Made by a program: the position numbers and the translations under genes. Shown one piece after another: positions 33,530-42,244 of a stretch of 64,000 nucleotides of DNA. Under the pieces are notes generated by a model that was not told the DNA's origin, ran no database searches, and saw only the letters and a program-made list of their open reading frames with translations. Source of the DNA: Olsenella sp. An188 (lineage in GTDB: Bacteria > Actinomycetota > Coriobacteriia > Coriobacteriales > Atopobiaceae). Where the stretch lies: contig NZ_NFKF01000001.1 of assembly GCF_002160255.1 (NCBI RefSeq), positions 186,001-250,000 of the forward strand, given 5' to 3'. Every line of letters starts with the position of its first letter. The first letter of the stretch is position 1.

Positions 33530-33577
33530 GCACGCGAGCGCCCGGCGAGAAGAACCTCGCGACGCGGGAGGTCCGAG

Positions 33578-33622
33578 CCCCGCGCACGGTTTTCGCGCGC
33601 AGGACGTGCGTTTGGCTCGGGC
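33578..33622 (+). repeat. 45-bp dispersed hairpin repeat, copy 1 of 3
   Basis: The unit begins with CGCGCACGG, has a variable middle, and ends GTGCGTTTGGCTCGGG. The two other copies are at 39486-39530 and 39559-39603, all 45 bases long. Pairing of CGCACG with CGTGCG and, just outside, CCGAGCC with GGCTCGG makes a hairpin. Confidence 0.75.
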
Positions 33623-33652: not shown

Positions 33653-33879
33653 GCGCTTAAGAAAACCGGGTTGTGGCAATCCGGCACCTGAACGTGCTTA
33701 ACAATCTGGTGTTATGGCAGCGGCGTCAGGGTGCGTGCTTAGAGATTCGGGGTTGTGGCGGCACTGGACTCCCCAAACACCCAGCACTCCCGGCCAAAAG
33801 CGGGCCAAAGACTGCCACGACCCCGGATTTCTAAGCACGAGAAGCGCCGCGATTGCCACAACCCCGTTTCTCTAAGCGC
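33653..33879. repeat. 41-bp-period array: three direct copies facing two inverted copies
   Basis: Plus-strand copies start at 33653, 33694 and 33735; minus-strand copies occupy 33810-33838 and 33851-33879. The step is 41 bases in both arms. Each 28-29-base unit fits GYGCTTA, about six variable bases, CGGGGTTGTGGCA and a short tail. Spacers are 12-13 bases and a 47-base centre separates the arms. The outer pair matches at about 25 of 29 positions. No coding frame is supported. It lies in the leuS-guaB gap. A sixth, partial unit is at 42188-42209. Confidence 0.85.
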
Positions 33880-34044: not shown

Positions 34045-34077
34045 GTCGCGCCGCAGGTTCTTCTCGCCGGACGGTGC

Positions 34078-42116: not shown

Positions 42117-42244
42117 CCGCACAATTCCGGAATTGTGCGGCCGGCGTGCGGGCACTTGAGCGCAAAGCACCAGTTGAGGTCCTTCTCGCGCTTAGAAAAG
42201 CGGGGTTGTCCGGGGCGGATTTCGCACAATTCCGAAATTGTGCG
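42117..42244. repeat. two GCACAATTCC palindromes flanking a GGGGTTGT repeat unit
   Basis: 42117-42140 is a perfect 24-bp palindrome (CCGCACAATTCC and its complement). 42223-42244 is a near-perfect 22-bp copy. Between them are CCTTCTCGC (about 42181) and GCGCTTAGAAAAGCGGGGTT (42188-42207), a unit of the 33.65-33.88 kb array. Another motif, GGCGAGAAGGGC, lies at about 42282. The gap from 41989 to 42301 has no supported gene. Confidence 0.8.

Follow-up and report, generated by a model that had tools for sequence, protein, structure and literature searches.

Five short units in two facing arms occupy the gap between leuS and guaB in Olsenella sp. An188, and this array is confirmed as one of about 22 of the same kind in the genome, a larger family than the initial annotation of the single array had noted. 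The arrays are DNA-level, helically phased, base-constrained multi-site elements under selection in place: the distances between their sites follow the turn of the double helix, and particular bases within the sites are held while the spacers between them change.

The array between leuS and guaB

The window analysed is a 64,000-nucleotide stretch of the An188 genome (contig NZ_NFKF01000001.1, positions 186,001–250,000), and coordinates are given within it unless a contig or locus is named. The initial annotation had described a five-unit array with two opposed arms between leuS and guaB. All five units are present at that location, the plus-strand units start at 33653, 33694 and 33735 as given, and the 41-bp step is exact in both arms. 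The two minus-strand units are also present, but the 29-mers first proposed for them start 3 bp before the units themselves. The features of the gap are as follows.

33544..33556, plus strand: GGCGAGAAGAACC motif, upstream of the leuS promoter
33653..33678, plus strand: unit 1, plus arm, GCGCTTAAGAAAACCGGGTTGTGGCA
33694..33719, plus strand: unit 2, plus arm, GTGCTTAACAATCTGGTGTTATGGCA
33735..33760, plus strand: unit 3, plus arm, GTGCTTAGAGATTCGGGGTTGTGGCG
33775..33787, plus strand: weak copy of the central core motif, AAACACCCAGCAC, with 3 mismatches to the consensus AAANSCNCAGKTR
33813..33838, minus strand: unit 4, minus arm, GTGCTTAGAAATCCGGGGTCGTGGCA
33854..33879, minus strand: unit 5, minus arm, GCGCTTAGAGAAACGGGGTTGTGGCA
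34056..34068, minus strand: GGCGAGAAGAACC motif, directly past the guaB stop codon

Two details of the earlier description needed correction. The string CGGGGTTGTGGCA, put forward as common to the units, is shared by some of them and absent from others (unit 2 has TGGTGTTATGGCA and unit 4 CGGGGTCGTGGCA), and the spacers, reported as 12–13 bases, are 17 bp when measured with the 24-bp core unit. Six matches to the unit pattern (≤3 mismatches) occur in the window, five of them in this array, against 0.10 expected from shuffling.

About 22 arrays of one design

A search for further copies throughout the 2.14-Mb genome, which the initial annotation had proposed, returned 110 matches to the unit pattern at ≤3 mismatches (54 forward, 56 reverse), compared with 5 for a reversed control (3 and 2). 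Nearly all of these lie in about 22 arrays, most of which have two facing arms, each with two to four units. Complete arrays hold four to six bipartite units in two facing arms at a 41-bp step; a few arrays are interrupted by contig ends or have units missing from one arm. Units within an array differ at scattered positions, as they would in a local decayed duplication, but some 22 arrays of the same design in one genome, with conservation in other species, leave that explanation with a vanishingly small probability, and it was rejected.

The unit is a 24-bp core, GCTTA-N8-GGGTTRTGGCA, which carries approximately 35 bits across 91 aligned units, a figure to be read with the fact that these units were chosen by pattern, so that the most strongly conserved positions partly reflect that choice. 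The 12 bases on either side hold little information in the same alignment, except for the base adjoining each end. The unit is asymmetric, its profile having no conserved internal dyad as judged by eye. Spacers are dissimilar between the arrays of An188, except in one recent group. Array segments at C1:501k, on the 4.6-kb contig C4 and at the start of C13 are near-identical and mosaic, and also break the assembly; they point to array segments having been copied ectopically, or converted, in the recent past.

All 22 arrays in An188 are intergenic with respect to the called genes, and their neighbours are unrelated (leuS/guaB, gltB, prs/pth, pgm/rpsI, dnaX, mfd, coaX, nth, fba and others). Array-bearing gaps were tandem, divergent and convergent in 9, 6 and 3 cases, compared with 13, 5 and 3 for other long gaps at the same loci. 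Nothing ties the arrays to a single pathway, promoter type or terminator. The variety of unrelated neighbours, and of their orientations, makes an operator of leuS or guaB unlikely, and the partition sites and multi-site operators with which the array had been compared at first remain analogies. A truncated Mutator-family (IS256-type) transposase fragment adjoins one array.

Distances between sites follow the helical turn

Almost every step between same-strand units in An188 measures 41 bp; a few measure 42 bp and two 52–53 bp, the latter longer by one turn. The distances between innermost facing units are 55, 65/66, 76, 87, 96, 117/118, 127/128 and 149 bp. Their best period is 10.38 bp (R = 0.965), a fit matched in 0/20,000 simulations, or in 8/20,000 when each of the eight length classes is counted once. 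The outer frame, defined as the distance between the second unit from each end of an array, was measured in 17 arrays and took values of 117 bp (four arrays), 127/128 bp (four), 137/138 bp (four), 148/149 bp (four) and 159 bp (one), with a period of 10.48 bp (R = 0.96, 0/20,000 simulations). Outer-frame lengths are therefore a ladder of single B-DNA turns, with a period of 10.4–10.5 bp. Extra units tend to occupy the longer frames, and distances from core to arm are likewise phased. The arrays of T. gallinarum (G086), with a 42-bp step and 98–129 bp between arms, independently gave a period of 10.34 bp (R = 0.95).

Distances between sites are thus limited to whole helical turns, as in a phased multi-site DNA–protein element, and spacing in B-DNA turns is a property of the double helix with proteins on one face. 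The one-turn frame ladder, the phased inner distances and the anchor conservation described below bear out the earlier suggestion that a step of 41 bp, near four turns, could place a bound protein on a single helix face.

Sites are constrained in sister species

Constraint was compared in ten arrays occupying orthologous gaps in T. gallinarum and its sister species G098. Anchor positions (GCTTA, GT and GTTG) had changed at 9/440 (2.0%), compared with 56/359 (15.6%) of spacer positions, a difference of p = 9e-13 that is optimistic because the anchor set was picked after the per-position counts had been seen; the plain comparison of whole units with spacers gave p = 0.003. The remaining unit positions had changed at 83/520, at a rate indistinguishable from that of the spacers (p = 0.93). 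Units in T. gallinarum were picked by consensus match, which slightly favours low anchor counts, but the bias is small, since only one array failed to keep its full complement of four or five units. The arms of the ten arrays contained zero gap columns; the centres contained two gaps in different arrays, one a run of 10 bp (one turn) and the other of a single base. The sites are thus under base-specific constraint, the second property of a phased multi-site DNA–protein element. On these alignments, anchor conservation is constraint at the locus, more than shared origin, and the arrays have the look of DNA sites kept by selection for a sequence-specific protein that assembles along one face of the double helix.

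Arrays turn over between species

Among the database records matched, convincing arrays were confined to Atopobiaceae-type records. Besides An188, itself a member of the Atopobiaceae and a relative of Thermophilibacter, they were found in Olsenella profusa An794, O. uli An733, Ca. Olsenella pullistercoris, one Atopobiaceae MAG and one other Atopobiaceae genus (G043). Matches with a 21-bp period in Chlamydia, Peribacillus, Blautia and Verrucomicrobia were simple tandem repeats without facing arms, and were discarded.

In T. mediterraneus, the closest relative (leuS N-terminus 99% identical to that of An188), the array was absent from six of seven orthologous gaps and shorter and degenerate in the other; the leuS–guaB gap of this species was searched and holds no array. 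The same gap carries arrays of the same kind in T. gallinarum, G098 and G093 and a degenerate cousin in G089, and it is the only one of approximately 14 array-bearing gaps in T. gallinarum that also bears an array in An188. At one gap, T. gallinarum has this array and G098 a different facing-arm array, built of CCAGGGTNTGTGCACT units, between flanks that are 96–97% identical. Whole-array gain, loss and replacement between species are clear from these comparisons, and with such turnover, function at any one locus is dispensable. The sequence of the unit itself differs genome-wide by species, ending ...GTTRTGGCA in An188 and ...GTNGTTGYA in T. gallinarum and G098, and reading GTTGYC... in G090 and G112, as predicted for one trans-acting protein per genome.

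Further arrays, tandem or facing and differing by species, were seen in the leuS–guaB gap of other relatives (loci L098–L125), composed of GGTTTGGGTTCAC, GGTTATGCGC, AAAGTCACGCTTTG palindromes or CGCATATGGCCGGATTTTGGCACC; several of them have a CAGGTAG-like centre.

A central core and a second, palindromic family

The core AAANSCNCAGKTR is clear in seven arrays of An188 and in most arrays of T. gallinarum and G098, at phased distances from both arms; six-unit arrays have no clear core. Genome-wide scans for CNCAGGTAGANGNC found the core enriched over a reversed control across Atopobiaceae, but most of the matches examined look coding or are without arms, so the core alone is not diagnostic. 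A second, related element also lies in the window.

42118..42244, plus strand: second, related element, with two 22-bp palindromes (CGCACAATTCCGGAATTGTGCG) 105 bp apart
42163..42176, plus strand: core within this element, CAAAGCACCAGTTG
42188..42212, plus strand: lone unit within this element

In the genome of An188 this second family comprises perfect 22-bp palindromes 102–105 bp apart (ten turns) with the same core and a lone unit, and it recurs at C1:25k, 109k, 444k, 483k and 501k (the last in the flank of an array) and at C10:173k, sometimes as a run of three palindromes spaced about 104 bp apart. Ten-turn spacing around a shared core was counted in favour of a phased complex.

Comparison with known elements

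REP, BIME and REPIN sequences are dispersed and extragenic, with facing units whose sequence is species-specific, and some are bound by proteins (PMC2817692, PMC3116915). The arrays resemble them in being extragenic and present in many copies, with facing pairs and species-specific units. REPs, however, are palindromic, bear a GTAG-type (GTAG/GGAG-like) head and are linked to RAYTs, whereas the units of the arrays are non-palindromic, are spaced on a one-turn ladder and conserve bases rather than pairing, in a genome without a Y1 transposase. With neither a palindromic unit nor a Y1 transposase in An188, and no general compensatory change between arms, identity with REP, REPIN or RAYT systems was rejected. 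Copies of a MITE are alike over their full length, whereas the spacers of the arrays are unlike between copies in An188, one recent group excepted.

Looping operators such as those of lac, ara, gal and lambda cI place their sites on one face of the helix, and tolerate changes of distance by whole turns. Such operators serve one promoter, whereas about 22 copies of the array stand beside unrelated genes. Phage attP and the ends of Mu and Tn7 have a core-plus-arm or repeated-site architecture, and the arrays likewise place phased arm sites to either side of a central core, over about 230 bp in all; they differ in that no dedicated integrase was found, copies are many, there is no cargo and there are no clean junctions. 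The arrangement of a core with phased arm sites is present, with a clear core in fewer than half of the An188 arrays, but a tyrosine recombinase att site was rejected, as the genome has no cognate integrase and its only two PF00589 proteins are Xer-like by count. The sopC centromere of the F plasmid consists of 43-bp repeats, a step of about four turns, but at a single locus and as direct repeats only, whereas the arrays have facing arms and are dispersed in the chromosome. In CRISPRs too, conserved repeats alternate with dissimilar spacers that are equally long; the arrays are set apart by their two facing arms, their 17-bp spacers and a total of four to six repeats, and the initial judgement that the array is not a CRISPR holds on geometry, since the arms face each other in all complete arrays.

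The initial annotation knew of no described element of this form, and none was found in the open-access literature, where searches on the unit sequence, the genus names and Coriobacteriia intergenic repeats returned nothing relevant. The case for novelty rests on this literature and on the failed tests for REP/REPIN, MITE, att-site, CRISPR and RNA-family identity. The principle of phased looping is well known; the element itself is undescribed in the open-access literature searched.

A candidate assembly site, and the alternatives

That a phased protein–DNA complex forms at the arrays is highly probable. An architectural role for such a complex, favoured by exclusion and by the distribution of the sites, falls a little short of even probability. 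We hold with corresponding caution the whole claim, that each array is where one sequence-specific DNA-binding protein assembles on the chromosome, with an architectural, looping role favoured: its chance of being right is nearly, but not quite, one in two. Protomers of the putative protein would bind the bipartite 24-bp units on one helix face, at intervals of four turns within each of two facing arms. Pairing of these arms would span a centre whose length could vary only by whole turns, and would produce a small loop or wrapped complex over the central core motif. The role would be position-flexible, in local architecture, a domain boundary or anchoring, as opposed to the regulation of one gene, given that the genes around the sites are unrelated and of every orientation and that sites can be replaced from one species to the next. 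A cognate binding protein was not found, and genome context linked none to the arrays; this, the turnover of arrays between species and the want of a clear core in six-unit arrays count against the claim.

Two other readings deserve weight. The arrays may be a non-autonomous mobile element moved between intergenic gaps by an enzyme, with the arms as its two ends and the units as transposase sites, in which case phasing would reflect the need for both ends to meet over very short DNA. The array-less orthologous gaps of close relatives, the replacement of one facing-arm family by another between near-identical flanks, and the near-identical segments at C1:501k, C4 and C13, which indicate that copies do spread, are all consistent with this. 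Functionless insertions, however, should decay evenly, and the anchors and spacers of orthologues have not; nor should spacers differ between copies when many insertions would need to be recent. Y1/RAYT transposases (PF01797), of which seven relatives have one to five, number none in An188, and no unit flanks those Y1 genes of relatives that were examined. The only two tyrosine recombinases (PF00589) in the genome are taken as XerC and XerD by number and score, target-site duplication was not clear at the empty gaps examined (one candidate is a 9-bp repeat, CCTGGGCGG), and searches of phages, plasmids and viral contigs recovered no copy of the array. We consider this reading unlikely but serious; mobile origin and host function are not mutually exclusive, and a mobile origin is possible. 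Less likely again are multi-site operators through which a global transcription regulator loops DNA at many promoters. Phased, looping operators are a known mode of repression, and some arrays do lie in divergent gaps or upstream of genes, but the neighbours share no gene class, convergent genes flank three or four of the arrays, use of gap orientations equals background, and position turns over while units stay constrained.

The remaining two have little probability. A structured RNA or cruciform with pairing arms would explain the very stable predicted fold (−134.5 kcal/mol; z = −8.9 on the plus strand and −6.5 on the minus), yet long predicted pairing between arms follows from the consensus that the units share. 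Arm spacers match in only 3/18 arrays (permutation p = 0.06), free bases inside units gave p = 0.06–0.15, and spacing tracks the 10.4–10.5 bp turn of B-DNA and not an RNA helix. No Rfam family was matched, a tRNA being the only RNA found in the window, and with no general covariation between arms the initial proposal of a branched RNA hairpin is not supported. Slightly more improbable still is a partition (centromere-like) system with many chromosomal sites, which is suggested by analogy with the step of the sopC repeats; the arrays are dispersed round the genome and not clustered near one locus, have facing arms with a quantised centre, and turn over between sister species.

The assembly-site reading can be extended, as a distinctly more tentative proposal, to an undescribed class of Atopobiaceae element in which a central core would be combined with facing arms of helically phased sites from several interchangeable families (24-bp units every 41–42 bp, palindromes roughly every 104 bp, and other motifs roughly every 20–31 bp), each read by its own protein. 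Families would swap at the same gaps between sister species, giving dispersed, insulator-like loop anchors under fast turnover of the recognition code.

Sequence alone rarely reveals that a dispersed non-coding element acts as a DNA duplex with protein bound along one face; in this case the one-turn length ladder and the base-level footprint both point to such action. Were the protein found, each genome would offer approximately 22 natural loop or anchor sites, complete with natural length variants, in which to test both the organisation of DNA between unrelated genes and the rapid gain, loss and swapping of sites. If the reading is true, the arrays would also explain part of the long intergenic gaps in this group of gut bacteria.

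Other motifs associated with the gaps

The motif GGCGAGAAGAACC, which flanks the leuS–guaB array, has 220 exact copies in the genome, compared with 0 for a reversed control. Its GGCGAGAAGRACC form occurs 48 times in 35 kb between genes and 11 times in 182 kb within genes, and 22/48 of the intergenic copies are inside arrays. Copies of GGCGAGAAGAACC in the window include those at 33544, 34056, 39497 and 42380, and in most relatives the motif follows the guaB stop codon and precedes the leuS −10 box.

A family of hairpins, CCGAGCCAAACGCACG..CGTGCGTTTGGCTCGG, in which a GTTCTTCTCGCC-like centre is frequent, is represented in the window at 33573–33620, at 480–900 of locus L094, and in L096 and L097. 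Three tandem copies at 73 bp (seven turns) were seen at C1:329k, and two in the array-less leuS–guaB gap of T. mediterraneus. The CAGGTAGATG core also occurs as inverted pairs in G007 (C211:5932–5997) and G097 (L078), which may be another arrangement of these parts; the pair in G097 has one outward-facing unit on each side.
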